Shown here: positions 10,472 to 26,355 of the stretch, in pieces
How positions within the stretch are numbered: the stretch's first letter is position 1
Layout of the letters: every line of letters begins with the position of its first letter
Program-made: the position numbers and the translations under genes
Notes under the pieces: model-generated
What the model was told of the DNA's origin: nothing
The model's database searches: none
What the model saw: the letters and a program-made list of their open reading frames with translations, nothing else
From: Rahnella victoriana
GTDB lineage: Bacteria > Pseudomonadota > Gammaproteobacteria > Enterobacterales > Enterobacteriaceae
Length of the DNA: 64,000 bases
Assembly: GCF_004330295.1 (NCBI RefSeq)
Contig: NZ_SJOJ01000007.1
Coordinates: 1-64,000 of the forward strand
Reading direction: 5' to 3'

Positions 10472-11062
10472 TTAAAGGTTACGATCGAGGGTAATAAACA
10501 CCTGTCCTGACGCTGTCACTTCATCGACACCACATTCGAAATGACTTTCCTGACGCGTCACGCTCAGGCGGTTGCCGGGAATACGGGCCACATCGTAAAC
10601 ATCCAGATCACCGTCGATATCCAGCAGCCAGCGGCCATTGCCCGGATGCGTGCTGCCCAGATCGACAATCCATGAATGATTGCCTTTCACGACATACGCA
10701 GGCAGGGTCAGCGAGTCATCCAGCAGTGAAGAGTCGACCGCCCAGACGCCTTCTTCTTCCAGTGCTCCGCCGCGCAATCTCAATTTTTTAAGCTGGCGGA
10801 CATCTCCTGGCACGGCGGACGCAGAAGGGTTCGCATCCTGCATTGAGCCTTTGCCTGTTGCCAGCCAGCGCAAGGAAACGCCGGTATCCAGCGCACAGGC
10901 CACCACTACGTCACCGGGAAAATAATTTCTTCTTACCCAGGTACTTATCGTGCCAGATGACAACCCGTACAGATCCCCCAGTTCTTTCTGCATGCTAAAG
11001 CCGTAAGCCTGAAGCATACGCGTCAGGACGGCTTTTCCACCTTCAAGTTCATCTAATTGCAT
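10472..11062 (-). CDS. cI: Phage repressor, 186 CI type (helix-turn-helix)
   Basis: A 196-aa DNA-binding repressor starting at MQLDELEGGK, with AGGGG 11 bp upstream. An in-frame start 33 codons earlier would run through the operator and is rejected. The N-terminal 70 residues carry a helix-turn-helix of the bacteriophage CI type (QKELGDLYGLSSGTISTWVR and WLATGKGS); the C-terminal part is a probable oligomerisation domain. Length and layout match the CI of coliphage 186 (192 aa). It is transcribed opposite to the early genes and should keep the tailocin silent. No RecA-cleavage (LexA/lambda-CI) peptidase signature is evident, so release probably needs a separate antirepressor. Confidence 0.85.
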   Translation of the reverse strand: MQLDELEGGKAVLTRMLQAYGFSMQKELGDLYGLSSGTISTWVRRNYFPGDVVVACALDTGVSLRWLATGKGSMQDANPSASAVPGDVRQLKKLRLRGGALEEEGVWAVDSSLLDDSLTLPAYVVKGNHSWIVDLGSTHPGNGRWLLDIDGDLDVYDVARIPGNRLSVTRQESHFECGVDEVTASGQVFITLDRNL

Positions 11063-11095
11063 CTGGCGAAAACCCCTGGATCTGTAAATATCATC

Positions 11096-11124
11096 TTGAC
11101 AACTTGCAAATGCAAGTTTAGATT
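11096..11124 (+). promoter_or_regulatory. Early promoter with embedded repressor operator
   Basis: A perfect -35 TTGACA (11096-11101), a 17-bp spacer and -10 TAGATT (11119-11124) read toward the early genes. The spacer is filled by the 18-bp inverted repeat AACTTGCAAATGCAAGTT (11101-11118; 8-bp perfect arms, 2-bp centre), the obvious binding site for the neighbouring repressor. A weaker leftward promoter for cI probably overlaps the same palindrome. Confidence 0.72.
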
Positions 11125-11194
11125 GATTATGTAATGTACCGTCAGATGACCATGATACCAAATTTACGGTGCCGTGGAGAAATAAGGAGACGCG

Positions 11195-11470
11195 ATGTTT
11201 TTAGGAACAGAGCAACAGCGCCAGACGGGGCTGCGTCAGATAGCCCATCTGAAAGAAATCTATTTCACTGAGCATAAAAATCCGGCTGAGCTTATTTTCG
11301 ATCAGGCCACTGAAAAATGGAAATTCACGTTATGTTTTCATGCTGGCCTTAAACGCCGTCATACCCTGTTGCCTTATTCCCGGTTAACACCTGAGGAGCA
11401 ATTAAAAATTGTTCAGGCACTTTTATCCCTGCGCCATTTCACGGCGTTTTTTAAAGGAAAATTTTACTGA
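11195..11470 (+). CDS. Small early-region protein of unknown function
   Basis: A 91-aa protein with a good AAGGAG ribosome-binding site, first gene of the rightward early transcript. It is rich in basic and aromatic residues (WKFTLCFHAGLKRRH, LRHFTAFFKGKFY), with no signal peptide or membrane segment. I do not recognise the family. By position it replaces the cox/B/orf80-type small genes of P2-like phages. Its stop overlaps the next start (TGATG). Confidence 0.7.
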   Translation: MFLGTEQQRQTGLRQIAHLKEIYFTEHKNPAELIFDQATEKWKFTLCFHAGLKRRHTLLPYSRLTPEEQLKIVQALLSLRHFTAFFKGKFY

Positions 11471-11691
11471 TGGCAGACTGGATAGATGAATCACAGGAAT
11501 ATCAGTTAAAGATACTTGAGGCGCAGATTTTACGGGCAACCCGCGCACAGCCTGTTGCCTCCGCCTTTTACTGTACGGATTGCGATGCCGCGATCCCTGA
11601 GCAACGCCGGAAAATCATTCCCGGCGTACAACGGTGTATTGAATGTCAGGAAATAGATGAGATAAAAAGAAAGAATTATCGCCCGGTATAA
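11470..11691 (+). CDS. TraR/DksA-type zinc finger protein (P2 early gene relative)
   Basis: A 73-aa protein with a C4 zinc finger of the DksA/TraR type: FYCTDCDAAIP ... VQRCIECQE (C-x2-C-x17-C-x2-C), preceded by an N-terminal helix. Similar small TraR/DksA proteins are common early genes of P2-like phages, where they may act on RNA polymerase through the secondary channel. It is translationally coupled to the upstream 91-aa gene. The function here is inferred. Confidence 0.82.
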   Translation: MADWIDESQEYQLKILEAQILRATRAQPVASAFYCTDCDAAIPEQRRKIIPGVQRCIECQEIDEIKRKNYRPV

Positions 11692-11761
11692 CACTTTCTC
11701 ATTTTAATCAATAAAGTCGCCTTTTTACTGGAAATAACGTTATTTCCGGAAGGTATTCTCT

Positions 11762-13732
11762 TTGTCGGAAATAACCTTAATGCCAGATAATAACAGAGGC
11801 AGGATTGCCCCTTCGCCGCCCCCGCCTTTTAACCGTACAGGCCGGAAACCTTTTGATGGCGTCTGGTGGTGGAACGCCCCCCTTCCGGCGCTCAGTTCCC
11901 CGCTGGACAAGCCGCTGACCCGCGATATCTGCCAGCGTCAGCAAACCGCCCTTTCTCAGCTGGCGACACTGCCCCGCTGTCTGCGTACTCCTTTGCATCA
12001 GCGCTATACCTGGCTGCTGGACACGCAGGGTGTCCGCGCGGCGGTGCATTTTCTGATGACGGTTTTTACACAGCGTTTATGGCCACGTATTCAGCAGGTG
12101 AATGCGCGTCACAGAGTCAATCGTCAGATCTCGCAAAAGCTACTCACCGAAGAAGACCTGTTTAACCGCCTGCCCGACCTTAATGACGATGCCCTGAAAC
12201 GTCTGGCAAACAGGCTGGCGGTAAACATGCTGGATGCTTACGAATATCACTGCGAACGTTGGCTGGAAAACCGCCCTGACCAATCCGATATTTTGCTGCA
12301 GGACGCGACACAACATGAGATTTACGGGCATGTTGCGACGATGGCCCGCGCCTGCGGCATCCAGCCTCTCTTCTGGCGCGCCTGGCAAAAAGGCCGGATG
12401 TGTGCAGAGTCTGCGGTCGCAGCGGTGTCACGTCTGGTCAGCGGTGACTGGTGGGAGAAACAACTGCGTACAAAACAGCGGCTCTGGCGGGAAGCGCTGA
12501 TGATCGCCTGCGGCTATGTGAGCCGCGCAACGTCGCCGTATGCCAGCAAAAATGCCATTCGCGATGTGGTATCGCGCCGCTTATCCGCCATCAATTACCT
12601 GAAGCAATGCCAGCTGGAAAATGTTGAATCCGGGGAAACGCTGAGTTTGCTGGACACCGTATTGGCCAGCGTCTCCAACCCCAAACTTCGCCGCATGGAA
12701 CTGATGACGCTGATTGCCGGGGTGGAAGATGTGGCGGATCAGCAGCGGGACTGCGGGCTGTTTATCACCCTGACCACCCCCTCAAAATATCACCCGCTGA
12801 AAATGAACTGCGGGGGTTCAGCGCCCCTGTTTAACCGGAAATGGGATCAGCACGCCTTTACGCCCAAGGATGCACAACGTTATCTGGTGGCCGTCTGGGC
12901 CAAAATCCGCACCACCTTTAAAGACCGCAACCTGAAAGTGTATGGCGTACGTGTCGTCGAACCGCATCACGACGGCACGCCGCACTGGCATATGATGTTG
13001 TTCACACCGCCCGAGCAGCAACAAAAAGTGGCAGAAGTCATGCGCCGTTACGCGCTGGAAGACGATCCGGATGAACCCGGCGCGGCGGAGTCACGTTTCA
13101 ATTGCAAGCCGCTGAACCGGGGCGGCGCGGCGGGATATATCGCCAAATACGTGGCCAAGAATATTGATGGTTACGCGCTCGATGGCGAAACCGATTTTGA
13201 CTCCGGACGCCTGCTGACCGATGTAGCCACCGCCGTCACCGCCTGGGCATCGACATGGCGCATCCCGCAGTTTCACGCCATTGGCATTCCTTCCGTCGGC
13301 GCATGGCGCGAATGCCGCCGCATCAGGCACCAGAGTCTGAGCAGCCGGTTTGACAGCCGGGTGGAAGACGTCCGCGCGGCCGCCGATCAGGGTGATTTTG
13401 CGGGTTATATTCAGGCGCAGGGCGGGATCCATATTCCCCGAAAGGAACAAACCGTTCGCGTCGCCCGCCAGCTCAGCGAAGAAAAAAATGCCTATGACGA
13501 GCGGCGTCACAAAGTTGTCGGCATTTACGCCCCGCATCTGGGAGCCTCACTCATTTTCCTCACCCATACCGAACAATGGCGGATTATCCGTCATCGCCCC
13601 GCTTTGGCGAAAAACCCGCAGATCCGCTCGCCTTGGAGTTCTGTCAATAACTGTGGATCGCCGCCGATATCGGAAAAAGAGATAAACCCTACAAAATCAA
13701 AGAGAATGAAAATTAACGTATTAATTCAATGA
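11762..13732 (+). CDS. A: P2 GpA-type rolling-circle replication endonuclease
   Basis: A relative of P2 gpA, which nicks the phage origin and starts rolling-circle replication. The HUH metal motif is intact (HHDGTPHWH, with H402, H408 and H410), as is the pair of active-site tyrosines spaced Y-x3-Y (Y459 and Y463 in GYIAKYVAKN), equivalent to Y450/Y454 of P2 A. At 656 aa it is shorter than P2 A (761); the missing part is C-terminal. The TTG start at 11762 is preceded by GGAAGG; an ATG at 11780 is the alternative. A catalytically intact replication gene is unexpected in an element that has lost its head and integrase genes. Confidence 0.88.
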   Translation: MSEITLMPDNNRGRIAPSPPPPFNRTGRKPFDGVWWWNAPLPALSSPLDKPLTRDICQRQQTALSQLATLPRCLRTPLHQRYTWLLDTQGVRAAVHFLMTVFTQRLWPRIQQVNARHRVNRQISQKLLTEEDLFNRLPDLNDDALKRLANRLAVNMLDAYEYHCERWLENRPDQSDILLQDATQHEIYGHVATMARACGIQPLFWRAWQKGRMCAESAVAAVSRLVSGDWWEKQLRTKQRLWREALMIACGYVSRATSPYASKNAIRDVVSRRLSAINYLKQCQLENVESGETLSLLDTVLASVSNPKLRRMELMTLIAGVEDVADQQRDCGLFITLTTPSKYHPLKMNCGGSAPLFNRKWDQHAFTPKDAQRYLVAVWAKIRTTFKDRNLKVYGVRVVEPHHDGTPHWHMMLFTPPEQQQKVAEVMRRYALEDDPDEPGAAESRFNCKPLNRGGAAGYIAKYVAKNIDGYALDGETDFDSGRLLTDVATAVTAWASTWRIPQFHAIGIPSVGAWRECRRIRHQSLSSRFDSRVEDVRAAADQGDFAGYIQAQGGIHIPRKEQTVRVARQLSEEKNAYDERRHKVVGIYAPHLGASLIFLTHTEQWRIIRHRPALAKNPQIRSPWSSVNNCGSPPISEKEINPTKSKRMKINVLIQ

Positions 13733-13784
13733 ATTATCTTATTTAAAAAGCGTTATGTGTTGACGTATTAGCTCAATTAAAGAA

Positions 13785-13804
13785 TACTGTATATAAACAC
13801 AGTA
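13785..13804. promoter_or_regulatory. LexA (SOS) box
   Basis: TACTGTATATAAACACAGTA fits the LexA consensus TACTG(TA)5CAGTA: both five-base ends are perfect and most of the ten-base core is AT-alternating. It overlaps the probable promoter (TTGACG at 13760-13765 and the region just downstream) of the 64-aa gene starting at 13822. This is the only LexA box I find inside the island and it looks as good as the recA box at 42243-42262. Confidence 0.82.
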
Positions 13805-13821
13805 TCTGGCGAGGGGAGAAA

Positions 13822-14016
13822 ATGGAAAACCTGACTAAACAACAGCTAACGTTGTCCAGGATACAACTGATCGCAGACATTTCACAGACAGCGCAATGCA
13901 ATCCCAAAGAGTTTCTGGTGATGATGTCCCTGATCTCAGAACTGGCCGGCCAGGCGCTGACCGATGAATCACAGGACGCATTGTATGGCAACGGGAGTAC
14001 TGACGATCCCCATTGA
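13822..14016 (+). CDS. Small SOS-controlled protein of unknown function (candidate induction switch)
   Basis: A 64-aa, mostly helical, acidic protein (MENLTKQQLTLSRIQLIADI...) with a strong GAGGGGAGAA ribosome-binding site and a near-consensus LexA box just upstream. I do not recognise the family. In phage 186 the LexA-controlled gene is tum, whose product inactivates CI and induces the prophage; this gene has comparable regulation, though Tum is larger (about 146 aa). That it couples DNA damage to tailocin induction is inference from the LexA box and the CI-type repressor. Confidence 0.72.
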   Translation: MENLTKQQLTLSRIQLIADISQTAQCNPKEFLVMMSLISELAGQALTDESQDALYGNGSTDDPH

Positions 14017-14052
14017 TCACCCGATCCTGCGGCGGTAATACTCAACACAACT

Positions 14053-14110: not shown

Positions 14111-14131
14111 TGTTGTGCCAGTCGTTTCACA
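14111..14131 (+). promoter_or_regulatory. Ogr-type late promoter site 1 (X-lysis-R operon)
   Basis: TGTTGTGCCA (14111-14120) is followed so that TGT (14114-14116), 12 bases and ACA (14129-14131) form the dyad TGT-N12-ACA known as the Ogr/Delta activator site of P2-family late promoters. It lies 84 bp before the X start, directly behind the deletion point of the head genes. Confidence 0.65.
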
Positions 14132-14214: not shown

Positions 14215-14418
14215 ATGAAAGTCTATGTAGAACAGGGTGATACCCTTGATTCATTGTGCTGGCGTTATTACAACCGCACAGCCGTTGTTGTCGAAAAGGT
14301 CTATGCCGCCAATAAAGGCATTGCTGATTTAGGACCACTGTTACCGCACGGTACGGCGGTCGAGATGCCTGACATTGCAGAACAACCGGTTCAGGAAACC
14401 CTCAAATTATGGGACTGA
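14215..14418 (+). CDS. X: P2 GpX-type tail protein
   Basis: A 67-aa protein, the same size as P2 gpX, from the ATG at 14215 (GGAG upstream). An in-frame upstream start at 14110 would run through the late promoter. The opening MKVYVEQGDTLDSLCWRYYN is a LysM-like fold typical of tail protein X, and the end VEMPDIA is a family hallmark. It belongs to the tail hub/tip region. It is the first gene of the late transcript; in P2 it follows the head gene L, which is missing here. Its end overlaps the holin start. Confidence 0.93.
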   Translation: MKVYVEQGDTLDSLCWRYYNRTAVVVEKVYAANKGIADLGPLLPHGTAVEMPDIAEQPVQETLKLWD

Positions 14419-14630
14419 ATACCGAACGCATCAGCTCAGCTTGCGCTTATTTCATTGCCACGTCGCTGACCTGGCTGGCAGGCCTGACCTCGCAGGATGT
14501 GGCCTTTCTGGTCGGTTCCGCCGTCGGGATCGGCACCTTCCTGATCAACTGGTATTACCGGCGCAAAAGCTATCAGTTGCTGTCCCGCAGCGGCCTGAGC
14601 AAAGAGACCTATGAAAACCTCAACTCTTAA
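14409..14630 (+). CDS. Phage holin (HP1/P2 family, class II)
   Basis: A 73-aa membrane protein with two hydrophobic segments (about 10-28 and 32-52) and a charged tail beginning YYRRKSY. Size, topology and position between X and the lysozyme match P2 gene Y / HP1-type holins. It should depolarise the membrane and free the SAR endolysin. It overlaps X by 10 bp and the endolysin by 20 bp, so translation is coupled. Confidence 0.88.
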   Translation: MGLNTERISSACAYFIATSLTWLAGLTSQDVAFLVGSAVGIGTFLINWYYRRKSYQLLSRSGLSKETYENLNS

Positions 14631-15120
14631 ACGTTGCAGCGCCGCCGTGGTTCTCGGGCTGATGGCCGCCCTGCCCGGCTATCTCTCCCTGCAGGTCTCT
14701 GAAGAGGGGTTAAAACTGATCACCGATTTTGAAGGCTGTCAGCTGCAACCCTATCAGTGCAGCGCCGGAGTATGGACCAGCGGCATTGGTCATACCGCAG
14801 GAGTGAAACCCGCGCAGGCCCTTACCGAACATCAGGCGGCGGAAAACCTGCTGCTGGATATTCAGCGAACAGAACGCCGCATCAAAAAATGTATGCCGGT
14901 CAACATGCCGCAACCGGTTTTCGATGCCGTGGTGTCCTTCGCCTTTAACGTCGGCACCGGTGCTGCCTGTCAGTCCACCCTGGCGTTTTTCATTAACCGG
15001 CAGCAATGGCGCAACGCCTGCGAGCAACTGTCGCGCTGGGTTTTCGTCAACGGCGAACGCAACCGCGGGCTGGAACGCAGACGAAACGCCGAACGCAGCG
15101 TCTGCCTGAAAGGAGCCTGA
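14611..15120 (+). CDS. SAR endolysin (lysozyme, GH24)
   Basis: A 169-aa phage lysozyme with an N-terminal signal-arrest-release segment (about 9-28, weakly hydrophobic with A/G/S) and a GH24 catalytic domain. The catalytic pattern is E41, C50, T56 (E-8-C-5-T); the middle residue, Asp in T4 lysozyme, is Cys here, a variant seen in other SAR endolysins. Later motifs VSFAFNVG and RWVFVNGERNRGLERRR complete the family. It is released from the membrane when the holin fires, and degrades peptidoglycan. Confidence 0.92.
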   Translation: MKTSTLKRCSAAVVLGLMAALPGYLSLQVSEEGLKLITDFEGCQLQPYQCSAGVWTSGIGHTAGVKPAQALTEHQAAENLLLDIQRTERRIKKCMPVNMPQPVFDAVVSFAFNVGTGAACQSTLAFFINRQQWRNACEQLSRWVFVNGERNRGLERRRNAERSVCLKGA

Positions 15121-15546
15121 ATGCGCCTGTTACCGGCAGCGATGACGGCAATGGCCCTGCTGATTGCCGTCCTGTTGCTCTCCAACCGCTCGTTACAGTA
15201 CGACCTCAACAGCGCCCGTCAGCAACAAGACGCCCTGCACAACCAGCTGCAACAACGGCAGCGGCTGATCGCCGAACTGAATCAGCAAATGCGCCTGCGT
15301 GAAGAGGCTGAACGGGCATTGCGCGAAGATCTGAACAGTGCCCGCCAGGTGATGCAATCGCGGGAACAGCAAAGAGAGAGGAGCCTTCACCATGATCCGC
15401 AAACCCGTCTGTGGGCTGACAGCCAGCTGCCTGCTGATATTAGCAGGCTGCACGAGCGACCGGCCTTCGGCTCCGCCAGCGATTATTTACGTTGGTTGTC
15501 CGGCAGTCAGCTCCTGCCCGGTACCGGCCAGTCATCCGGCCACTAA
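15121..15546 (+). CDS. lysB: Inner-membrane spanin subunit (Rz/LysB-like)
   Basis: A 141-aa protein with one N-terminal membrane anchor (about 5-23) and a long coiled coil rich in Q, L, R and E (about 28-95). This is the layout of i-spanins such as P2 LysB. It starts directly after the endolysin stop. With the embedded lipoprotein gene it should bridge and fuse the inner and outer membranes in the last step of lysis. Confidence 0.88.
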   Translation: MRLLPAAMTAMALLIAVLLLSNRSLQYDLNSARQQQDALHNQLQQRQRLIAELNQQMRLREEAERALREDLNSARQVMQSREQQRERSLHHDPQTRLWADSQLPADISRLHERPAFGSASDYLRWLSGSQLLPGTGQSSGH

Positions 15547-15679
15547 CGAAGCGTTGAGTGCCGACATTCTGCAACTGGAGTCGGCGCTGCTGAACTGCGG
15601 TTTACAGATTGAAACCATCAAAAAGTGTCAGGAGGCACAACATGCAAAAACCGATGCAATTGCAACAACGGCTGATTGA
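15392..15679 (+). CDS. lysC: Outer-membrane spanin lipoprotein (Rz1/LysC-like)
   Basis: A 95-aa lipoprotein in the +1 frame relative to Rz, starting inside it and running past its end. The signal peptide ends in the lipobox LILAGC (Cys about 20), followed by a Pro-containing linker (SDRPSAPPA) typical of Rz1 o-spanins. The nested arrangement is diagnostic of the Rz/Rz1 pair in P2-like lysis cassettes. Its 3' end overlaps the R start by 38 bp. Confidence 0.88.
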   Translation: MIRKPVCGLTASCLLILAGCTSDRPSAPPAIIYVGCPAVSSCPVPASHPATNEALSADILQLESALLNCGLQIETIKKCQEAQHAKTDAIATTAD

Positions 15680-16106
15680 ACAGGTGCCGCTGCTGGCGGC
15701 CTCACCCGGGCAACTGGTGATCGCCACAGGCGCGGGACAGGTGGTGGCGACATCCGCCGCTTCGCTTTCTTTTGAATATCGCTACCCGCTGACCCTGACC
15801 GTCAGCGGCGACACGACAGTCAGCGAAGCTCTGGTCGATCAGATGGTGGTCGTCATCCTCGACTGGCTGCAGGTCAATCAGCCGGAAATCCTGGGAAATG
15901 CCAGCCACCGTCTGAGTGATTTCACCTTCACCCAGCAGGAGAAAAACCTGGTGCTGACCCTGCAGCTTACCGAGCGCGTTCAGGTGTCTGATCAGGAAAA
16001 CATACGCACCATCACCCATCTGCCTGAACCGCCCTTACCCGCCAATGTGGCGCTTCCCCGTGAGGTCTACCTCAATGGGGTATTGATCAGCAGCTGGACG
16101 GTATAA
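15642..16106 (+). CDS. R: P2 GpR-type tail completion protein
   Basis: A 154-aa protein (P2 gpR 155) beginning MQKPMQLQQRLIEQ, with AGGAGG seven bases upstream; a longer frame from 15609 lacks this site. It has conserved TVSGDTT, VVVILDWLQVNQPE and PREVYLNGVLISSW segments. In P2, R and S complete the neck end of the tail. Here S, normally next, is absent: only 81 bp separate R from V. R may cap the headless tail. Confidence 0.9.
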   Translation: MQKPMQLQQRLIEQVPLLAASPGQLVIATGAGQVVATSAASLSFEYRYPLTLTVSGDTTVSEALVDQMVVVILDWLQVNQPEILGNASHRLSDFTFTQQEKNLVLTLQLTERVQVSDQENIRTITHLPEPPLPANVALPREVYLNGVLISSWTV

Positions 16107-16118: not shown

Positions 16119-16180
16119 TGTTGTGCCATCCGCTGGCGAACGGCCACCGGTTGTCGCCTAACCCTGTGAAACGGCATCCT
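16119..16180 (+). promoter_or_regulatory. Ogr-type late promoter 2 (V-W-J-I-H-G operon)
   Basis: The same TGTTGTGCCA (16119-16128) as at the other two late units, followed about 40 bp later by TGTGAAACGGCATCCT (16165-16180), which recurs at almost the same distance in late promoter 3. The distal ACA half of the dyad is not conserved here. Conservation of both blocks at two sites suggests activator site plus core promoter. Confidence 0.6.
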
Positions 16181-16187: not shown

Positions 16188-16829
16188 ATGAATACGACAC
16201 TTCAACTTAACGACATGATGCGGCTGGTCAACAACCTGGTGCGCATCGGCAAAGTCTCAGAACTGGATCTGGCCAATGCGCGCTGTCGCGTCAGTAGCGG
16301 CGACAATGTGACCGCGTGGCTGCCGTGGATAACCCACCGTGCTGGCCGTACGCGAAGCTGGTGGGCCCCGTCTGTCGGTGAACAGGTTTTGCTGCTCTCG
16401 ATGGGCGGCGAACTGAATACGGCATTCGTTTTACCGGCCGTATTTTCCGATACCTCACCTGCGCCTTCTGCTTCGGCGGATGCCATTCATCTGGCCTTCC
16501 CGGACGGCGCCATTTTTGAATACGAACCGAAGACCAGCGCGCTGAACGTCACCGGCATTAAAACCGCGGTGATCAACGCCTCACAAAAAGTGGACGTGAC
16601 GGCGCCTGAAGTCCGCTGCACGGCCAGCACCCGCATCACGCTGGATACGCCGGAAGTGGTGTGTACCAGCAAGCTCACCACCGGTTCCCTTGAAGTCAAA
16701 CAGGGCGGCACGCTCACCGGGAATATCACCCACAGCGGCGGCAGCCTGATCTCTAACGGCATCATTGTGCATCTCCATCGTCACAGCGGTGTGCAATCTG
16801 GTAACGGTCAGACCGGAGGCCCGCAATGA
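16188..16829 (+). CDS. V: Baseplate assembly protein, tail spike (P2 GpV)
   Basis: A 213-aa protein (P2 gpV 211), the membrane-piercing baseplate spike. It has the N-terminal OB-fold region (SELDLANARCRVSSGDNVTAWLPW, 20 or so residues from about 24) and a C-terminal beta-helix. The end NGIIVHLHRHSGVQSGNGQTGGP carries the HxH motif that binds the apical metal ion. It is the first gene of the baseplate operon and overlaps W by four bases. Confidence 0.95.
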   Translation: MNTTLQLNDMMRLVNNLVRIGKVSELDLANARCRVSSGDNVTAWLPWITHRAGRTRSWWAPSVGEQVLLLSMGGELNTAFVLPAVFSDTSPAPSASADAIHLAFPDGAIFEYEPKTSALNVTGIKTAVINASQKVDVTAPEVRCTASTRITLDTPEVVCTSKLTTGSLEVKQGGTLTGNITHSGGSLISNGIIVHLHRHSGVQSGNGQTGGPQ

Positions 16830-20090: not shown

Positions 20091-20609
20091 ATGATCATAT
20101 TCAAAAACATCAAAATAACAAAACAAGCTTTTGAAGAAGGATTAACATTACCAATTATATATTTTGAAGATCAAGAGGGGAACGACTGGTACGAATTGAG
20201 AGATCGTGAATGGAAAGGTAAAAACCATTTCATAACAGTAGGTAAAGATAAAATCGTGAGGACATGGGCTAAAGACCCTAATTTCCTCACCCTTTCAGAG
20301 GGTGTTACAATTATAGAAATAAATAAGGAAATAATCCCAAAAGATATAATAAATCATCAATATATGTTTGTTAATGGTGAATTCTCAAGTCTTGAACCTT
20401 CTGTAAATGAATTAGCAGAAAAAGAAAGAAATTTACTATTAGCATCTTCATTGACAATTCTTGCCCCTCTTCAAGATGCATGGGATCTAGGAGTTTCTAC
20501 AGAAGAAGAAAAGACTCAACTCAAAGCCTGGAAGACTTACCGTGTCGCCTTAAACCGGTTAGATTTGTCCACGGCGCCTGACATTACCTGGCCCGACATT
20601 CCGGCCTGA
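20091..20609 (+). CDS. G: Tail fibre assembly chaperone (P2 GpG / Tfa family)
   Basis: A 172-aa protein (P2 gpG 175) starting four bases after the fibre stop. The C-terminal part, with KTQLKAWKTYRVALNRLDLS then DITWPDIPA, is the signature of Tfa chaperones that fold the cognate fibre tip. About the first 140 codons are very AT-rich, whereas the last 30 return to the GC-rich composition of the island, so the chaperone was exchanged together with the fibre tip. A hairpin terminator follows directly. Confidence 0.92.
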   Translation: MIIFKNIKITKQAFEEGLTLPIIYFEDQEGNDWYELRDREWKGKNHFITVGKDKIVRTWAKDPNFLTLSEGVTIIEINKEIIPKDIINHQYMFVNGEFSSLEPSVNELAEKERNLLLASSLTILAPLQDAWDLGVSTEEEKTQLKAWKTYRVALNRLDLSTAPDITWPDIPA

Positions 20610-20655: not shown

Positions 20656-20716
20656 TGTTGTGCCAACGCCCCCACGCCCCTGATCGAATGCGCTTACTGC
20701 TGTGAACCGGCATCCT
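20656..20716 (+). promoter_or_regulatory. Ogr-type late promoter 3 (FI-D operon)
   Basis: TGTTGTGCCA (20656-20665) is identical to the elements at 14111 and 16119, and TGTGAACCGGCATCCT (20701-20716) matches 14 of 16 or better the block at 16165. The spacing between the two differs by one base from late promoter 2. It lies between the terminator after G and the sheath gene. Confidence 0.62.
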
Positions 20717-20750: not shown

Positions 20751-21920
20751 ATGGCTGATTATCATCACGGCGTACGTGTCGTTGAAATCAACGATGGCAC
20801 CCGCGTTATTTCTACCGTTTCCACCGCTATTGTCGGCATGGTTTGTACTGCAGAAGATGCAGATGCGGCCACGTTCCCCCTTAATACACCGGTTCTGATC
20901 ACCGATGTTCTCGCGGCCAGCGGCAAAGCGGGCACCAGCGGGACTTTACGTGCCGCGCTGCTGGCTATTGCTGATCAGTGCAAACCCGTCACCGTCGTGG
21001 TACGTGTTGCCACCGGCGAAGATGAAGATGCGACTACCAGCAATATTATTGGCGGTTCGGATGCCAATGGCCGCTACACCGGCATGAAAGCGCTGCTGTC
21101 TGCACAGGCGGAGCTGGGGGTTAAGCCACGCATTCTGGGCGTTCCGGGGCTGGATAATCTGGCAGTCGCCACCGCGCTGGCTGGCGTTTGTCAGCAGTTG
21201 CGCGCTTTCGGTTATGTCGGCGTGTATGGCGCAAAAACCATTTCCGATGCGATCGCCTACCGTGAAAACTTCAGCCAGCGCGAACTGATGCTGATCTGGC
21301 CGGACTTTGTGAACTGGAATACCGCCACCAGCCAGTCTGATATCGCTTATGCCACCGCCCGTGCGCTGGGCCTGCGCGCCAAAATCGACCAGGAAACCGG
21401 CTGGCATAAAACACTGTCAAACGTCGGCGTTAACGGCGTCACCGGCCTTTCTGCCAGCGTTTTCTGGGATCTGCAGGCCACCGGCACCGATGCCGATTTG
21501 CTGAATGAAGCCTGCGTGACCACGCTGGTGCGCAAAGACGGTTTCCGTTTCTGGGGTAACCGTACCTGCAGCGATGACACGTTATTCCTGTTTGAGAACT
21601 ACACCCGTACTGCGCAGGTTCTGGCTGACACCATGGCCGAAGCCCACATGTGGGCCGTCGATAAACCAATGACGCCGTCCCTGGTGCGCGACATGATCGA
21701 CGGCATCAAAGCCAAAATGCGTGAAATGAAATCAGCGGGTTACATCATTGATGGCGACTGCTGGTACGACGAAAACGCTAACACGGCGGAAACCCTGAAA
21801 GCCGGTAAGTTGTATATCGATTATGACTATACCCCGGTTCCTCCACTGGAAGATCTGACCCTGCGCCAGCGTATCACCGACTCCTATCTGGTGAACTTTG
21901 CCGCGTCCATTAACAGCTAA
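20751..21920 (+). CDS. FI: Contractile tail sheath protein (P2 GpFI)
   Basis: A 389-aa protein (P2 FI 396) forming the contractile sheath. It opens YHHGVRVVEINDGTRVISTV, typical of P2-family sheaths, and contains GLSASVFWDLQ, KDGFRFWGNRTCSDD and a C-terminal YLVNFAASINS. It contracts to drive the tube through the target envelope. It heads the sheath-tube-tape operon; high expression is expected. Confidence 0.97.
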   Translation: MADYHHGVRVVEINDGTRVISTVSTAIVGMVCTAEDADAATFPLNTPVLITDVLAASGKAGTSGTLRAALLAIADQCKPVTVVVRVATGEDEDATTSNIIGGSDANGRYTGMKALLSAQAELGVKPRILGVPGLDNLAVATALAGVCQQLRAFGYVGVYGAKTISDAIAYRENFSQRELMLIWPDFVNWNTATSQSDIAYATARALGLRAKIDQETGWHKTLSNVGVNGVTGLSASVFWDLQATGTDADLLNEACVTTLVRKDGFRFWGNRTCSDDTLFLFENYTRTAQVLADTMAEAHMWAVDKPMTPSLVRDMIDGIKAKMREMKSAGYIIDGDCWYDENANTAETLKAGKLYIDYDYTPVPPLEDLTLRQRITDSYLVNFAASINS

Positions 21921-21934: not shown

Positions 21935-22444
21935 ATGGCACTTCCTAAGAAATTAAAATATCTGAACCTGTTCAATGACGGGAACAGCTACCTCGGTCTG
22001 GTCTCTTCCCTGACTCTGCCAAAACTGACCCGCAAGCTGGAAAACTATCGCGGCGGTGGCATGAGCGGTTCCGTCGCCGTGGATTTCGGTCTGGATGACG
22101 ACGCGCTGACCCTTGAATGGTCCATCGGCGGCCTGGATGAGCTGGTGTTGCAGCAATGGGGCAGCACATCGGATATTCCGCTGCGCTTTGCCGGTTCCCT
22201 GCAACGTGACGACACCGGTGATGTCTCTGCGGTAGAAGTCATGATGCGCGGCCGTCATAAAGAGTTTGATTTCGGTGAGTACAAACAGGGCGAAGACACA
22301 GAAACCAAAATCACCACCCAATGTACCTATTTCAAACTCACCATCGATGGCAAAGAGCTGATTGAGATCGACACCGTCAATATGGTCGAAGTGGTCAACG
22401 GCGTTGACCGTCTGGCTGAGCATCGTACTGCGCTCGGCCTGTAA
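21935..22444 (+). CDS. FII: Tail tube protein (P2 GpFII)
   Basis: A 169-aa protein (P2 FII 172), the subunit of the rigid inner tube. It begins MALPKKLKYLNLFNDGNSYLG, and GHKEFDFG-like GRHKEFDFGEYKQGEDTET and TYFKLTIDGKELIEIDTVN segments are characteristic. The ribosome-binding site AAGGAGACG is strong. It lies 14 bp after the sheath gene, as in P2. Confidence 0.96.
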   Translation: MALPKKLKYLNLFNDGNSYLGLVSSLTLPKLTRKLENYRGGGMSGSVAVDFGLDDDALTLEWSIGGLDELVLQQWGSTSDIPLRFAGSLQRDDTGDVSAVEVMMRGRHKEFDFGEYKQGEDTETKITTQCTYFKLTIDGKELIEIDTVNMVEVVNGVDRLAEHRTALGL

Positions 22445-22506: not shown

Positions 22507-22791
22507 ATGAGCCAGACTGAAAACAACAACACCGTGATCCTGGATGTGCCGTTAAAACGCGGCGATACGAGCATCGCGGAAATCCTGGTCACCAAACCGA
22601 CCGCAGGCAGCCTGCGGGGTATCGGTCTTGCCGCGCTGGCAAACGCCGATGTCGATGCACTGATCACCATTTTGCCTCGTATCACCACGCCGAACCTGAC
22701 CAAAGAAGAGTGCTCACGTCTGGAACTGCCTGACCTGATTGCGCTGGCAGGCAAGGTGATCGGTTTTTTATCGCCGAAACCGGAGGCGTAA
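22507..22791 (+). CDS. E: Tail assembly protein E (P2 GpE)
   Basis: A 94-aa protein (P2 gpE 91). It is the short product of the overlapping E/E' gene pair that acts as a tape-measure assembly chaperone, analogous to lambda G/GT. It has the P2-E-like PLKRGDTSIAEILVTKPTAG and ends LAGKVIGFLSPKPEA. The slippery heptamer lies at codons 86-88. Confidence 0.93.
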   Translation: MSQTENNNTVILDVPLKRGDTSIAEILVTKPTAGSLRGIGLAALANADVDALITILPRITTPNLTKEECSRLELPDLIALAGKVIGFLSPKPEA

Positions 22792-22946
22792 ACATTGCGC
22801 CCCGCCTCACTGTCGATGATCTGATGGCAGATATCGCGGTGATCTTTCACTGGCCGCCGTCCGAGATGGACGGCATGTCACTTACCGATCTGTTGAACTG
22901 GCGTCATAAGGCACTGCAACGCAGCGGAGTAAAAACAGATGAGTAA
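22507..22946 (+). CDS. E': Tail assembly fusion protein E+E' by programmed -1 frameshift
   Basis: A slip of -1 at T TTT TTA (22764-22770, in GGT TTT TTA) moves ribosomes out of E at Leu88 into an open frame that continues for 58 codons (IAETGGVNIAPRLTVDDLMA ... SGVKTDE) and stops at 22944-22946. The fusion would be 146 aa (P2 E+E' 142). The E' frame has no start of its own, contains the conserved VIFHWPPSEM segment and overlaps the tape measure start by eight bases, as in P2. The frameshift is inferred from sequence. Confidence 0.85.
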
Positions 22947-24561
22947 TCTCGAACAGTTACCCACCACGCTTGAGAAAATGAACCAACAGCTGGGGCCGCT
23001 GCGTAAGGCGACGGCCAATATCTGGCAACAATTTACGACAGTACCCAAAAAGAATGTTTTCACCGGGATGTCGGAAGACATGACTGACGCCTCGTCACGG
23101 CTGCGCGGGTCTCTTTTTACCCCGGCTGAAAAACAGGCTTATGACGAGATGACAGAAACAATCAGGACGTCCTATTCGGAAAGCATTCAGCCATCGCGCC
23201 CGCAGGTTCTGGAACAAAAAGGACGGGAAGCAGGACAACGATACCAGCAGCGTAGAGAGAAAATTGACCGGCTGAAAAATACCAGCTCTTCACTTGTCGC
23301 CTTCGCACAACCGAAATTAGAGCTGGCGAAAAACTTCCTCAAACCGGCGTCTGATCTCGAAGCCGGGCTTTCTGAAGTTCAGGCGACGCTCAGGCTGAAA
23401 AATGATGATCCACAGCTGGCCGCATTGCGCCAGCAAAGCCTATCGATGGCCGCGTCAGGCCATTCTCCCGCCGACGTTGTCGCCAGACAGCAGGCATTGG
23501 CCAATACAGGAATGGATGCCGGTCAGGTGCTGACCCAGACATCTGCGGCACTGAACGGCGCGACACCCGCTGCGCAAATGGCCGTTACCGTCAAAGGCGA
23601 TAATCTGGATGGCGACATCAGCAAACTGTTTGCGACCTGGGACACCCTGCGCATCAATCTGTTTGCCGGGCAAAGTTCCGCCCTGCGCGAACTCACGCAA
23701 ACCGCAACAAGCTGGCTGGGTACGCTGAATACCTGGATCACTGATAATCCGCTGCTGGTGAATACACTGCTCGGTCTGGCATTAGGTATCACCGGCATTA
23801 TCGGCGGGCTGGGCTCTCTCGGCACAGTCATAGTGCCGGTGCTCAGCGGGATCAATATGCTGATGGCTGGCGCCGGTTTGCTGGGCACGCTGTTCACCGG
23901 CACCGGCGGCATGATTGCCGCGGCGTTTACCGCCATAGGGTTGCCGCTTCTGCCGGTCATCGCATTGATTGCCGGGATCGGAGTGGCAGTGGTCAAACTT
24001 TGGGAGCCGATCAGTGCCTTTGTCGGGGGCGTGATCGAAGGATTTACGTCGGTGATGGGGCCGGTCAGTGAGGCGTTTGCCCCGTTCAGCACGGCGCTGG
24101 GCTGGATCACCGACTTATTTGAACCGATTAAATTCAGTCAGGATCAACTGAGCGGTTTCAGCAATATAGGCAAAGAGGTCGGGGAAGCGATCGCAGAGGT
24201 TTTTGTCACGCTCAATAAAGCTGTCTCGCAAATCGGAGAACTCTTTATCTGGGCGAAAAAAGGATGGGACTCCATTTTTGGCAATGACAGTTCTGATGCA
24301 GGCGCGGATATGACGACACCGCCGGTTGACAGCATTTCCCCCACCGGCGGAGCACTGAACCTGTATCAGCCTGCCAAAACCAGCGTGGCCAATAATCTGA
24401 CCGATAACCGTGCAACGACGGTCAATGTCAGCTTTACAGCCACACCCGACACCGATAAGCAGCAGATCCAATCATTGGTCAACGATGTCTTCAATGAACG
24501 TGAATGGAATGCCACCAATAATTCCTACAACCGGTTTGCTAACGGAGGGATCTACTCATGA
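22939..24561 (+). CDS. T: Tail tape measure protein (P2 GpT), short version
   Basis: A 540-aa tape measure that sets tail length; P2 gpT has 815. Residues 1-220 are helical and charged, about 255-360 is a strongly hydrophobic Gly/Ala/Ile/Leu segment likely inserted into the target membrane, and the end NSYNRFANGGIYS is typical. Since length scales with tail length in this family, the particle should be roughly two-thirds as long as P2's tail. The ATGA overlap with U indicates coupled translation. Confidence 0.93.
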   Translation: MSNLEQLPTTLEKMNQQLGPLRKATANIWQQFTTVPKKNVFTGMSEDMTDASSRLRGSLFTPAEKQAYDEMTETIRTSYSESIQPSRPQVLEQKGREAGQRYQQRREKIDRLKNTSSSLVAFAQPKLELAKNFLKPASDLEAGLSEVQATLRLKNDDPQLAALRQQSLSMAASGHSPADVVARQQALANTGMDAGQVLTQTSAALNGATPAAQMAVTVKGDNLDGDISKLFATWDTLRINLFAGQSSALRELTQTATSWLGTLNTWITDNPLLVNTLLGLALGITGIIGGLGSLGTVIVPVLSGINMLMAGAGLLGTLFTGTGGMIAAAFTAIGLPLLPVIALIAGIGVAVVKLWEPISAFVGGVIEGFTSVMGPVSEAFAPFSTALGWITDLFEPIKFSQDQLSGFSNIGKEVGEAIAEVFVTLNKAVSQIGELFIWAKKGWDSIFGNDSSDAGADMTTPPVDSISPTGGALNLYQPAKTSVANNLTDNRATTVNVSFTATPDTDKQQIQSLVNDVFNEREWNATNNSYNRFANGGIYS

Positions 24562-25028
24562 TGATGTCGCTGGGTTTATTCGTTTTTAAATTAAATACCC
24601 TTCCCTATCAGACGCTTGCCAGACAGACGAATTACAGCTGGGGAGATAACCCCCGCTTCGGGCAACGCCCTGTTTCGCAATTTCTCGGGCTGGGAAAAGA
24701 AACCATCACATTGTCAGGACAGTTGCTGCCCGAAGTCACCGGGGGAGTCAGCTATCTTCAGACACTTCAGGGGATGGCGGATTCCGGACGGGCATGGCCG
24801 CTGATTGAAGGCAACGGAACAATCTACGGCATGTATATTATTGAAAGTATGAACAATACCAACACGGAACTTAACTCCATCGGTCAGGCACGCAGTATCA
24901 GTTTTGGCCTGGTGTTAAGACGTGTCGATGAATCTCAGGCGGCGATGTTCGGCGATTTACTCACCCAGGCCGAAGGTTTATATAACAAGGCCAGTTCTGC
25001 AATCAGCAACTTCGTTGCGGGAGTCTGA
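24558..25028 (+). CDS. U: Tail terminator/baseplate-associated protein (P2 GpU)
   Basis: A 156-aa protein (P2 gpU 159). It begins MMMSLGLFVFKLNTLPYQTL, close to the P2 U N-terminus, and contains NPRFGQRPVSQFLGLGKETI. In P2 it is needed for tail completion. It overlaps the tape measure stop by four bases; any of the first three ATG codons could be used. Confidence 0.95.
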   Translation: MMMSLGLFVFKLNTLPYQTLARQTNYSWGDNPRFGQRPVSQFLGLGKETITLSGQLLPEVTGGVSYLQTLQGMADSGRAWPLIEGNGTIYGMYIIESMNNTNTELNSIGQARSISFGLVLRRVDESQAAMFGDLLTQAEGLYNKASSAISNFVAGV

Positions 25029-25030
25029 CT

Positions 25031-26104
25031 ATGCTGACCGATTTGCAAATACCTGCCGGGGCAAGGATTGCGCCGGTATTTACACTGGCGATTAAAAATA
25101 AGGTCCTCGAGGAAAATATCTCCGACCGTATTATTAAATTGTCGGTAACAGATAAAAGCGGTTTTGAGGCGGACATGCTAAGCCTGACATTCGACGACAG
25201 TGATGGTCTGTTGCAGATGCCTGTCAGGGGGGCCATCTTGCACCTGCATCTCGGGTGGTCAAAACAAGCTTTATACGATTGCGGCTATTTTACGGTCGAT
25301 ACAGTCGTCTACTCCGGCTCCCCCGATAAAATTGACGTGACCGCCCGCAGCGCAGATTTTCGTGGCTCTTTTGCTACCAGGCGCAGCCAGTCCTATGACG
25401 ATTACACACTGGGTGCAATTGTGCGGATTATTTCTGGGCGGAATGCCTTATCGTTGCCGGTGATCCCGCAGGAACTCGACAGCATTAAGATACCGCATAT
25501 CGATCAGACGACTGAAACAGATGCCTATTTCCTGAGCCGTCTGGCGCAAAATTACGGCGCTCAGGTCACGGTGAAAAATGGCTCAATCTTATTTTTTAAA
25601 GGGGGAACAGGTCGCACCGCGTCGGGCCAGGCGCTTCCCTGGAAGACCCTGATCCGCAGTGACGGAGATAATTATACCTATAAGCTGACAGATACCCGGG
25701 CCTATAGCGGCGTGAAGGCACAATGGCACGATGTTAAAACGGCGACGAGCAGTAATATTGCGCTTAACCGCACCGCTGATAAGAGTTATACCGCCGGAAC
25801 GGCAGAAAATATCCTGCAGCTCGCCAAAATCTTTCCTGACGAGGAAACGGCAAAACGGGCTGCAGACTCCGTGTTTAGTCAGATACAAACTGATTCGTCG
25901 TCCTTCAGCATCAAACTTGCCATGGGACGCGCCGATCTCAGTGCGCAATCGCCGGTAAACGTCCAGGGTTTTAAAGATGAGATCGACAGTCAACGCTGGG
26001 TGATTGAGTCCGCAGTGCATAATGTTAATGAGAAAGGCTTTACTACCACGTTGAATCTGAAGATTTACATTGCAGATATCACTTACGAATCCTCAATAAC
26101 ATAA
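25031..26104 (+). CDS. D: Baseplate hub protein (P2 GpD, 'late control protein D')
   Basis: A 357-aa protein (P2 gpD 387), the gp27-like hub that joins tube and spike. It has QIPAGARIAPVFTLAIKNK at the start, the family motifs TFDDSDGLLQMPVRGAILHL and DYTLGAIVRII, and the C-terminal WVIESAVHNVNEKGFTTTL. It is the last structural gene, with Ogr 71 bp downstream, as in P2. Confidence 0.95.
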   Translation: MLTDLQIPAGARIAPVFTLAIKNKVLEENISDRIIKLSVTDKSGFEADMLSLTFDDSDGLLQMPVRGAILHLHLGWSKQALYDCGYFTVDTVVYSGSPDKIDVTARSADFRGSFATRRSQSYDDYTLGAIVRIISGRNALSLPVIPQELDSIKIPHIDQTTETDAYFLSRLAQNYGAQVTVKNGSILFFKGGTGRTASGQALPWKTLIRSDGDNYTYKLTDTRAYSGVKAQWHDVKTATSSNIALNRTADKSYTAGTAENILQLAKIFPDEETAKRAADSVFSQIQTDSSSFSIKLAMGRADLSAQSPVNVQGFKDEIDSQRWVIESAVHNVNEKGFTTTLNLKIYIADITYESSIT

Positions 26105-26175
26105 TTTAAACTTGCTTTTGCGAGTTATGAGTTTCATAATCACCTTATCGCTTACTTGTCATGCCGGAGGTTTTT

Positions 26176-26355
26176 ATGATGCATTGTCCGCTTTGTGGAA
26201 AGGTTGCCCATACACGTTCAAGCCGTTACCTGAGTGAATCCACGAAAGAACGCTATCACCAGTGTCAGAACATCGAGTGCAGCTGTACCTTCGCAACACA
26301 CGAATCTGTCGCCCGGGTTATCTCAAAACCGGGTGGCCAGCCTGCCGCTGCGTAG
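26176..26355 (+). CDS. ogr: Late gene transcription activator Ogr/Delta
   Basis: A 59-aa zinc-finger activator (P2 Ogr 72 aa) beginning MMHCPLCGKVAHTRSSRYLS and containing ERYHQCQNIECSCTF, with the four Cys (C-x2-C ... C-x4-C) that bind zinc. GGAGG five bases upstream favours the ATG at 26176 over an in-frame ATG at 26161. It is known to recruit RNA polymerase via the alpha subunit at TGT-N12-ACA sites; the three TGTTGTGCCA elements are its probable targets. It is the last gene of the island. Confidence 0.95.
   Translation: MMHCPLCGKVAHTRSSRYLSESTKERYHQCQNIECSCTFATHESVARVISKPGGQPAAA

Follow-up and report, generated by a model that had tools for sequence, protein, structure and literature searches.

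A headless P2/186-type tail cluster between aroF and rplS of Rahnella with a retained phage replication module

The cluster between aroF and rplS

In Rahnella, positions 10472 to 26355 of the analysed window (64,000 nucleotides of Rahnella victoriana contig NZ_SJOJ01000007.1) hold a headless cluster of P2/186-type tail, lysis and regulatory genes between aroF and rplS. It comprises the following genes and sites.

10472..11065, minus: CI repressor of 186 type, helix-turn-helix and C-terminal domain (Pfam PF07022, PF16452)
11101..11118, no strand: CI operator-like palindrome AACTTGCAAATGCAAGTT in the early promoter region (read from the sequence; putative role)
11195..11470, plus: short gpB-like replication protein, 91 aa (phrog_602)
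11470..11691, plus: DksA-like zinc-finger protein (PF01258, phrog_54)
11762..13732, plus: gpA, P2/186-type HUH replication nickase (PF05840, E 3e-92; phrog_91, E 2e-244)
13635..13654, plus: replication origin, 20/20 identical to the 186 origin and 19/20 to that of P2
13785..13804, plus: LexA box TACTGTATATAAACACAGTA (chance expectation 0.00; identical in 12/12 genomes)
13822..14016, plus: 64-aa protein, distantly homologous to the N-terminal domain of Tum, the antirepressor of 186 (hhalign)
14112..14131, plus: Ogr-type site before X (GTTGTGCCA...), at -102 or -103 in 12/12 genomes
14215..14418, plus: X, baseplate hub (PF05489)
14409..14630, plus: holin (PF16080)
14611..15120, plus: endolysin, a lysozyme (PF00959)
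15121..15546, plus: Rz-like inner spanin in LysB position (by position and Rz1 overlap; no Pfam match)
15392..15679, plus: Rz1-like outer spanin, LysC (PF23793)
15642..16106, plus: R, tail terminator/completion (PF06891)
16120..16139, plus: Ogr-type site before V, at -67 (-64 in L040) in 12/12 genomes
16188..16829, plus: V, spike (PF18715, PF04717)
16826..17176, plus: W, baseplate wedge (PF04965)
17181..18089, plus: J, baseplate (PF04865; 71% to P2 J)
18082..18609, plus: I, baseplate (PF09684)
18621..20087, plus: H, tail fibre with variable C-terminus (PF12571, PF03406)
20091..20609, plus: G, fibre chaperone (PF02413)
20657..20676, plus: Ogr-type site before FI, at -93 in 13/13 genomes
20751..21920, plus: FI, sheath (PF04984, PF17482)
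21935..22444, plus: FII, tube (PF04985)
22507..22791, plus: E, tail assembly chaperone (PF10109)
22939..24561, plus: T, tape measure, 540 aa (phrog_28, PHROG only)
24558..25028, plus: U, tail protein (PF06995)
25031..26104, plus: D, baseplate hub (PF05954)
26109..26126, no strand: CI operator-like palindrome AACTTGCTTTTGCGAGTT before ogr, a motif shared with the early promoter region
26161..26355, plus: Ogr, late-gene activator (PF04606)
26383..26409, found on both strands: terminator-like hairpin between ogr and rplS

The initial annotation had placed the cluster and its gene order correctly, as the family assignments by Pfam and PHROG show. For CI, the internal ATG at amino acid 33 of the listed ORF is the more likely start; the 197-aa version is open in all 12 Rahnella genomes, and Pfam reported no self-cleavage domain. 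A reading in the -1 frame gives E', which runs to about 22946 and into the start of T. The structural frames had been called intact, and X, R, V, W, J, I, H, FI, FII, E, T, U and D are indeed open in 12 of 12 Rahnella genomes. They had also been called close to P2 in length, which fails for T (540 aa against 815 in P2), H (488 against 669) and D (357 against 387). The late operon was said to begin 200 bp after the early genes, which are those of the gpB-like protein (11195-11470), the DksA-like protein and the nickase gpA (11762-13732). The distance to X is 198 bp from the 64-aa ORF and 482 bp from gpA, and the latter interval contains the LexA box and the 64-aa ORF. A lax Rfam scan gave a single match, far below its threshold.

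Searches by tblastn (E<0.01) with proteins of P2, 186 and a Yersinia P2-like phage gave no match to head, terminase, portal, int, cox or S genes in 10183-26447, the sole match of this protein set being P2 gpB on the ORF at 11195. A P2/186-type cos, with a pattern equal to the cos ends given for P2 and 186 in their records, was absent from the window at up to three mismatches. The earlier statement that integrase, terminase, portal and capsid are lacking is thereby borne out. No word of 9-20 bases that could represent an att repeat is shared by the left (10183-10480) and right flank (26341-26450), and megablast against phage and plasmid collections revealed no near relative, the best match covering 8% of the query. 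By these searches the island lacks the integrase, capsid, terminase and cos of a functional P2/186 prophage, and, without int and a P2/186-type cos, also the mobility genes and packaging site of a P4-like or cos-type satellite; its DNA seems incapable of entering a phage particle. Two P2-type prophages with capsid genes are located elsewhere in the same genome (C7 and C43). The tail-completion gene S was found by tblastn with two S proteins neither in the island nor in the 25 related headless clusters that were fetched. Most clusters retain R while all seem to lack S, which suggests a place for gpS in the head-tail joint.

Replication module and SOS control sites

The most unusual part of the cluster is the retained phage replication module, which like the SOS switch was absent from the initial annotation. 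As in P2 and 186, it has a gpA with HUH motif and paired tyrosines (HHDGTPHWHM; GYIAKYVAK) and an origin inside the gpA gene; the short gpB-like protein is its third component. The catalytic motifs are invariant across 11 aligned Rahnella sequences, and gpA has a dN/dS of 0.104 in 12 Rahnella genomes. Over the same number of genomes 239 of 240 origin letters are conserved, and the origin is the most synonymously constrained stretch of the Rahnella gpA gene (ranks 1-3 of 615), with zero synonymous change. Frameshifts in gpA occur near the N-terminus in L044 and near the C-terminus in L045, where the frame is shifted ahead of the origin and the origin letters are unchanged; in L146 the ORF stops before the origin. 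Hence, gpA and origin are conserved and selected in Rahnella. Both are predicted to fire, for a purpose proposed below. The 91-aa gpB-like protein matches gp10 of a Yersinia phage, annotated as GpB (41% over 78 aa, E 8e-19), and P2 gpB (35% over 46 aa, E 2e-9).

Downstream of gpA, the 64-aa ORF occupies the same place as tum in 186. Pairwise BLASTP with 186 Tum gave no match, and the link to the Tum N-terminal domain needed profiles (hhalign probability 94.7, E 6e-8). The three Ogr-type sites before X, V and FI resemble annotated B sites of 186. CI operator-like palindromes are located at both control promoters with small changes only (early promoter in 12 genomes, ogr promoter in 13/13), and the 186 record annotates CI binding also at the pB promoter of that phage. 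Thus, LexA box, Tum-N-like antirepressor, CI operators and Ogr sites appear to be retained as an SOS switch, with a regulatory action predicted by analogy.

Conservation in Rahnella and related clusters

Of 14 Rahnella genomes, 12 have the cluster open, one has it spread across contigs and one (G002) has a decayed copy; its chromosomal position is the same in all genomes examined. The comparison of the aroF-rplS interval that had been proposed yielded the same headless cluster in all 12 Rahnella genomes for which the full interval was available, and no island in five relatives fetched (L048, L049, L052, L054, L055; aroF was not reached in L050 and L051). Within this family, the interval appears to be a site at which tailocins recur. 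G002 lacks most tail genes; this copy and a second decayed one, G029, have lost most or all of gpA along with most tail genes and still hold Tum-N, X, lysis genes and ogr. A plain prophage remnant fits these two copies and is ruled out for the 12 intact Rahnella clusters by selection and conservation.

In Rahnella, dN/dS is far below 1 for tail genes (FII 0.011, FI 0.028). At silent sites, FI and FII have diverged as much as aroF and tyrA, in keeping with vertical descent, whereas nine other genes including gpA and J (about 1.0-1.9) lie well above aroF (0.56), so parts of the locus seem to recombine. Maintenance mainly through vertical descent is the best reading for the locus in Rahnella. Fibre and chaperone vary, in the manner of swapped fibre modules, while sheath and tube stay constant: H shows 48-81% over the aligned part within Rahnella, and G is missing in at least five of 12 clusters, which have a shorter fibre. 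The length of T is 539-564 aa across 13 Rahnella genomes.

These data support the initial view of a domesticated, chromosomally fixed R-type tailocin by open tail genes, low dN/dS and the silent divergence of FI and FII. Disrupted tail genes in most relatives had been named as counter-evidence; the decayed copy of G002, one among 14 Rahnella genomes, counts against the tailocin view. The contractile tail set is complete with sheath, tube, baseplate, spike, fibre, tape measure and terminator, S not being found. Head and packaging genes are absent by tblastn and cos search, the cluster has its own lysis genes and, as judged from its sites, probably damage-linked control, and it is maintained by selection at a fixed position. 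The reading of the island as an R-type tailocin that arose by domestication of a P2/186-family prophage is well supported, and the headless tail is probably a weapon against related bacteria. A 2024 review states, in the part cited here, that tailocins lack replication genes (PMC12090994), and the Rahnella island departs from this with gpA, a gpB-like protein and an origin that are present and selected. Since the presumed xenorhabdicin loci of Xenorhabdus depart from it as well, it seems to be the replication-free criterion that is wrong, not the membership of the island.

A survey of other genomes started from the 99 of 295 with a J match at E<=1e-60. Capsid and gpA were searched in 80 of these; the other 19 had weaker J matches or low completeness. 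The 112 J places fell into 65 with capsid and gpA at 10.7 kb or more, six with capsid only, 29 headless ones with gpA at 2.8-5.3 kb and 12 with neither. The headless group consists of 28 places without capsid and G158, whose only capsid match is 27 kb off on the other side; in these 29 clusters, from 18 genera, gpA lies directly ahead of the tail genes. The 12 places with neither gene include contig ends and remnants as well as L172, in which head genes are present. Two others, L169 and L175, seem to be genuine tailocins that lack gpA, and on the evidence of these candidates gpA is not universally needed. The presence of gpA in 25 of 25 fetched clusters is no result, as the class requires gpA by definition; what counts is 29 against two. 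R was not recognised in L144 and L145.

A single clade of headless gpA clusters is rejected in the gpA tree (p = 7e-9). The origin 20-mer carries one or two changes in 9 of 25 non-Rahnella clusters versus 0 of 20 prophages. Six xenorhabdicin-type loci show the same origin constraint as Rahnella (ranks 1-3 of 612), and three Dickeya-type loci alone only a mild one (rank 76-109 of 681). The dN/dS of gpA is 0.06-0.13 in xenorhabdicin-type, Dickeya-type and g49 clusters and higher, 0.11-0.23, among the 186-type and other clusters tested. An integrase gene was seen in five of 25 related clusters fetched outside Rahnella. In L162, placed next to 186 in the gpA tree, int and apl persist along with fragments of P and L.

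Xenorhabdicin (xnp1/xbp1) shares the headless P2-type tail, CI, LexA/Tum region, gpA and exact origin in four named Xenorhabdus loci, which we infer to be the xenorhabdicin locus. It differs in a gpA of another, 186-type clade (36-37% identical to that of Rahnella), in the subtype of the Tum-N-like protein and in its chromosomal position, flanked by araC and ogrK in the description of PMC13280938, which also reports fibre ends varying across the genus Xenorhabdus. After mitomycin C, 'GpA' from the tailocin locus of X. nematophila increases together with GpW, according to the results cited from PMC8855722, a paper that names GpA in Xnp1 and yet introduces xnp1 as lacking replication genes. Dickeyocin P2D1-type clusters of Dickeya and Prodigiosinella share the headless P2-type cluster, CI, gpB, DksA-like protein, gpA, origin, LexA box and Tum-N-like protein; their gpB is full-length, in contrast to the short Rahnella version, their gpA is 46-49% identical, and neither aroF nor rplS adjoins them in the stretches fetched. 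The fetched Dickeya-type loci are presumably the P2D1 locus itself, and the cited portion of the Dickeyocin P2D1 paper names no replication gene (PMC10719855). Pantailocin from Pantoea is also of P2 type; the Pantoea cluster L114 has gpA, the exact origin and a Tum-N protein and, unlike the Rahnella island, an integrase, and published pantailocin is placed between rpoD and sulP (PMC12873547). In the Peduoviridae phages 186 and P2, the control, replication, lysis and tail genes follow one another as in the island and the origin is the same; in 186 a LexA site likewise lies between A and tum. Unlike these phages, the island has no int, cox/apl, cII, head, packaging, S or cos within the reach of the searches. 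R-type pyocins and enterocoliticin are likewise headless contractile tail bacteriocins; R-pyocins have other regulators and are not known to have a replication gene. Enterocoliticin is described as Mu-like (PMC13030884). Literature searches on tailocin replication, rolling circle or copy number returned no paper among the matches listed, though gene maps of xnp1 or pantailocin may show gpA; nothing relevant on a tailocin with aroF or rplS was among the matches listed.

Possible role of the retained nickase

We consider it probable that SOS-induced gpA copies the tailocin locus in place and thus amplifies the tail genes, the explanation that best covers the whole. Upon DNA damage, LexA would leave the box at 13785 and the Tum-N-like protein would disable CI, as in 186. 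The loss of CI at the operator-like sites would open the early promoter, for gpB-like protein, DksA-like protein and gpA, as well as the ogr promoter. Ogr would then switch on three late units at X, V and FI, and holin, endolysin and spanins would lyse the cell and release headless contractile tails. Nicking of the retained origin by gpA would start a rolling circle within the chromosome, with copying that proceeds from 13635 into the tail genes. More tail-gene templates would result, and late transcription would perhaps be licensed. Replication has a role in late transcription of P2.

The selection on gpA and origin, and the SOS switch directly downstream of gpA, would also fit a gpA kept to commit the cell, in which nicking of the chromosome yields single-stranded DNA and more SOS and so locks the LexA/Tum/CI switch on. 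We regard this as rather unlikely, since the annotated role of gpA in 186 and P2 is replication, and P2-type clusters keep a gpB or gpB-like gene along with gpA, which is better explained by replication than by simple nicking. It is more doubtful still that gpA reflects inertia, a leftover of a decaying prophage that is yet to be lost. Some clusters look recent, such as L162 with its phage genes, and the decayed copies G029 and G002 lack all or most of gpA; the decay of G002 leaves the odds unaffected, as gpA and tail were lost together. Low dN/dS of gpA in Rahnella and in the other clusters, the silent constancy of the Rahnella origin and the persistence of gpA while int, cox and head genes went all speak against inertia.

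The capsid-bearing P2-type prophages of the same genome could serve as helpers for a mobile satellite replicated by gpA, and int does occur in some related clusters. Such a satellite is very improbable given the absence of cos, int and cox in the searches above, the one position in Rahnella, the agreement of FI/FII dS with aroF and the marginal match to phage and plasmid collections. The same prophages could use the island as a spare tail set rather than a weapon, the least probable case: the cluster brings lysis and control genes of its own, it is open in 12 of the 14 Rahnella genomes, and spare tails would differ in length and joining, as S was not found and T has only 540 aa.

Beyond in-place amplification in Rahnella, there is about an even chance that P2/186-derived tailocins are self-amplifying weapons, in which the genome-copying machine of a phage was reused, several times independently, as a gene-dosage booster. 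Head, packaging and excision would have been discarded, and replication initiator and origin kept for an SOS-induced rolling circle into the tail operon. Should many tailocins of P2 type have kept nickase and origin under selection, the output of the weapon may depend on amplifying DNA in place, which bears on how one chromosomal copy yields many tails. If this is true, induction would copy adjacent chromosomal genes as well, rplS and trmD in this case, and would commit producers to death in a new way.

The tail cluster between aroF and rplS in Rahnella

The 16-kb cluster fills the space between aroF and rplS and encodes CI, a gpB-like protein, a DksA-like protein, gpA, a 64-aa protein, X, the lysis genes, R, V, W, J, I, H (fibre), G (chaperone), FI (sheath), FII (tube), E/E', T, U, D and the late-gene activator Ogr. 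The following features of the window are discussed:

10472-26355, the headless P2/186-like cluster
11101 and 26109, one palindrome in two copies, before the early genes and before ogr
11762-13732, + strand, gpA, the P2/186 HUH replication nickase
13635-13654, replication origin, inside the gpA gene
13785-13804, LexA box
13822-14016, ORF of 64 aa
41097-42191, minus strand, ORF that reads as recA by sequence
42243-42262, second, palindromic LexA-box match

Protein queries from P2, 186 and Yersinia phage found no head, packaging, integrase, Cox or S genes in the cluster, and no P2/186-type cos was seen in the window. Together with the gene content, these searches bear out the initial annotation, which had placed a headless P2/186-like cluster at this site. 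Its description needs correction in two respects: the tail set, regarded as complete, lacks S, and T, H and D, stated to be close to P2 in length, fall clearly short of their P2 counterparts. With T, the tape measure, at 540 aa, the tails are predicted to be shorter than P2 tails. ARAGORN called a tRNA-Gln at 9977-10053, inside aroF, which is probably a false call because it is absent from the Rfam results. Elsewhere in the same genome there are two P2-type prophages with capsid genes (contigs C7 and C43), and contig C50 carries a P2-like cos (1 mismatch) beside another gpA.

A comparison of the aroF-rplS interval, as proposed in the initial annotation, revealed the same cluster in every one of the 12 Rahnella genomes for which the interval is complete, namely the window's own genome and 11 of 13 relatives. 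The tail genes are intact across these relatives, with X, R, V, W, J, I, H, FI, FII, E, T, U and D open in 12/12 complete clusters. In genome G013 the cluster is divided among contigs: FI to ogr adjoins rplS, and J and gpA are on a different contig. The copy in genome G002 (L223, G002:C66:1-4500) is decayed: R to most of D are gone, and what remains is a gpA piece, the 64-aa gene, X, the lysis genes, the end of D and ogr. Here, the assembly consists of about 650 contigs and the decayed copy may reflect a misjoin.

Among the 12 complete clusters the tube has a dN/dS of 0.011 and the sheath one of 0.028; the remaining structural genes lie at 0.06-0.28, many fibre pairs being saturated, and Rz1, which overlaps Rz, reaches 0.36. 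The median dS of sheath (0.63) and tube (0.58) equals that of tyrA (0.57) and aroF (0.56), as expected under vertical descent. For nine further genes (the DksA-like gene, gpA, lysozyme, R, J, I, T, U and D) dS is 1.0-1.9, so that parts of the locus have probably been exchanged. The Rahnella cluster is an old resident kept by selection.

Variation is found in the fibre module. The window and four Rahnella relatives have a long H and the chaperone G. In five other Rahnella clusters (L036, L039, L043, L045 and L046) H is short (320-343 aa), I has 204 aa and no chaperone frame of at least 90 aa was found before FI. In the Rahnella cluster L041 (G007, about 12400-13500) the place of the chaperone between H and FI is taken by a glycosyltransferase gene on the opposite strand, encoding 253 aa of family 25 (LPS synthesis; PF01755, E 1e-27). 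This enzyme might alter the LPS of the producer and shield it from its own tailocin. In the case of Rahnella cluster L040 (G006), the J-I-H-G block lies behind ogr (locus 650-3800) and not between W and FI, the cluster being otherwise open; judging by this arrangement, the fibre module seems to move as one unit.

Retention of gpA and its origin

The gpA protein is a full P2/186 initiator (PF05840, E 3e-92). When 11 Rahnella sequences are aligned, neither its HUH motif nor its double-tyrosine motif varies, and 10 of the 12 Rahnella genomes carry the gene collinear and open; the exceptions are a frameshift near the start in L044 and a frame change shortly before the end in L045. The product of the ORF that precedes the DksA-like gene is similar to gpB, which is the second replication protein of P2. 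Within gpA, the origin GGAGTTCTGTCAATAACTGT is identical to that of 186 in 20/20 letters and to that of P2 in 19/20. Over the 12 genomes 239/240 origin letters are kept, and conservation drops to 0.55-0.75 in adjoining stretches. In 11 genomes (L045 left out) there is no synonymous change at the origin, where windows rank 1-3 of 615 in gpA, and in L045 the letters are unchanged though the reading frame shifts ahead of them. Therefore, the DNA itself and not the protein alone is under selection.

Headless clusters in other genera

A gpA scan of named genomes, from which the best 79 of 247 matching loci were taken, detected gpA just before X in headless clusters of Prodigiosinella, Dickeya, Pantoea (one metagenome-assembled genome) and four Xenorhabdus loci, besides Rahnella. 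All seven combine an exact origin with intact gpA motifs. Because this search used gpA itself, a second survey of 295 family genomes was keyed on the baseplate gene J, and capsid and gpA were mapped in 80 of the 99 genomes with a J match. In 29 headless clusters from 18 genera (by group code) gpA lies 2.8-5.3 kb upstream of J; at 65 places with a capsid gene it lies at least 10.7 kb upstream, and no distance falls in between. Two candidate tailocins, L169 and L175, are without gpA. L175 (G268) is headless with a LexA box and X; its sheath, tube and tape-measure genes are on the opposite strand.

For 25 non-Rahnella headless clusters (L144-L168) and 20 complete prophages (L183-L202) the loci were fetched. 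The gpA motifs are intact in 25/25 clusters, with the frame of L146 stopping before the origin, and a LexA box is present in 24/25. Of the 25 clusters, 16 have the exact origin, 6 differ from it by one letter and 3 by two; it is exact in all 20 prophages (T or C accepted at the sixth letter). S is present in every one of the prophages and was found in none of the 25 clusters, a pattern which suggests that gpS works at the head-tail joint.

A quick gpA tree was built from 58 sequences, of which 34 come from headless clusters and one (L167) sits on a long branch. Grouping the headless sequences in a single clade is rejected (p-AU 6.8e-9), and the well-supported branches require at least five changes between headless cluster and phage. 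A quick J tree (62 sequences) requires at least four. Thus, gpA persisted in lineages which either lost their heads independently or underwent recombination with phages. The dN/dS of gpA is 0.06-0.11 in the xenorhabdicin-type loci (four from Xenorhabdus and two from g13 grouped with them by the trees), 0.11-0.13 in three Dickeya-type loci, 0.11-0.23 among five 186-type clusters, and 0.08, 0.18 and 0.15 in g49, g146 and g81. The gpA windows at the origin take ranks 1-3 of 612 for the six xenorhabdicin-type loci and 4-7 of 578 for ten 186-type clusters, but no higher than 76-109 of 681 for the three Dickeya-type loci.

The aroF-rplS site itself is recurrent. Headless clusters with rplS, aroF or both seen beside them occur in seven more surveyed genera (g49, g65, g96, g98, g108, g127 and g176), and both gpA clades are represented at this site. 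In G139 (L159, 1715-3352) such a cluster still has an integrase between aroF and cI, which points to a prophage ancestor at aroF-rplS; L159 is perhaps an early stage of domestication. A decayed remnant of this tailocin, also located at aroF-rplS, was seen in G029, from another genus (L053, 15100-18700); it keeps cI, a Tum-N-like gene, X, the genes for lysis, fragments of R and W, and ogr, with gpA and most tail genes gone.

Putative SOS control and a proposed induction scheme

The LexA box, for which no chance match is expected, is identical in 12/12 Rahnella genomes and lies about 36 bases ahead of the 64-aa gene. With up to three mismatches allowed, the window has a single further match. It is just upstream of recA, as the SOS regulon predicts, and is a good internal control for the box search. 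According to its record annotation, phage 186 carries tum, the gene of its antirepressor, together with a LexA site at this position behind A. In a profile comparison the 64-aa protein matches the Tum N-terminal domain (probability 94.7, E 6e-8); BLASTP against 186 Tum gave no match. Tum-like proteins of other such clusters are mostly short too and without the DinI domain. The two palindrome copies correspond to the places where 186 CI acts, the early genes and ogr (186 record annotation), and Ogr-type sites precede X, V and FI in all 12 Rahnella genomes.

What the sequences show is the sites, the genes and the selection on them; each action in the following probable scheme of induction and amplification is our inference. 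Upon DNA damage LexA would leave the Tum-N gene, the product of which would disable CI; the early genes and ogr would then be switched on, Ogr would fire the late units, and late expression would lyse the cell and set the tails free. At the same time, gpA would nick the origin. With the nick position taken from the P2 record, and with strand and polarity as in P2, which put the nick on the displayed strand, new synthesis would run rightward into X to D and raise tail-gene dosage. In P2, late transcription depends on replication. If the same holds here, copying would also license tail-gene expression. In agreement with this mechanism, PMC8855722 reports that GpA and GpW of the X. nematophila tailocin locus are both up after mitomycin C.

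P2-type tailocins are known from Xenorhabdus (PMC13280938), Dickeya (PMC10719855) and Pantoea (PMC12873547). In the literature searched, mostly judged from listings, no report on a Rahnella tailocin or the aroF-rplS locus was found. A review describes tailocins and related structures as marked by the absence of nucleic acid replication genes (PMC12090994). For the P2/186 type this is contradicted by the clusters with gpA. Tailocins as such are already known; those of the P2/186 type that keep replication genes are a departure from the description in the review.
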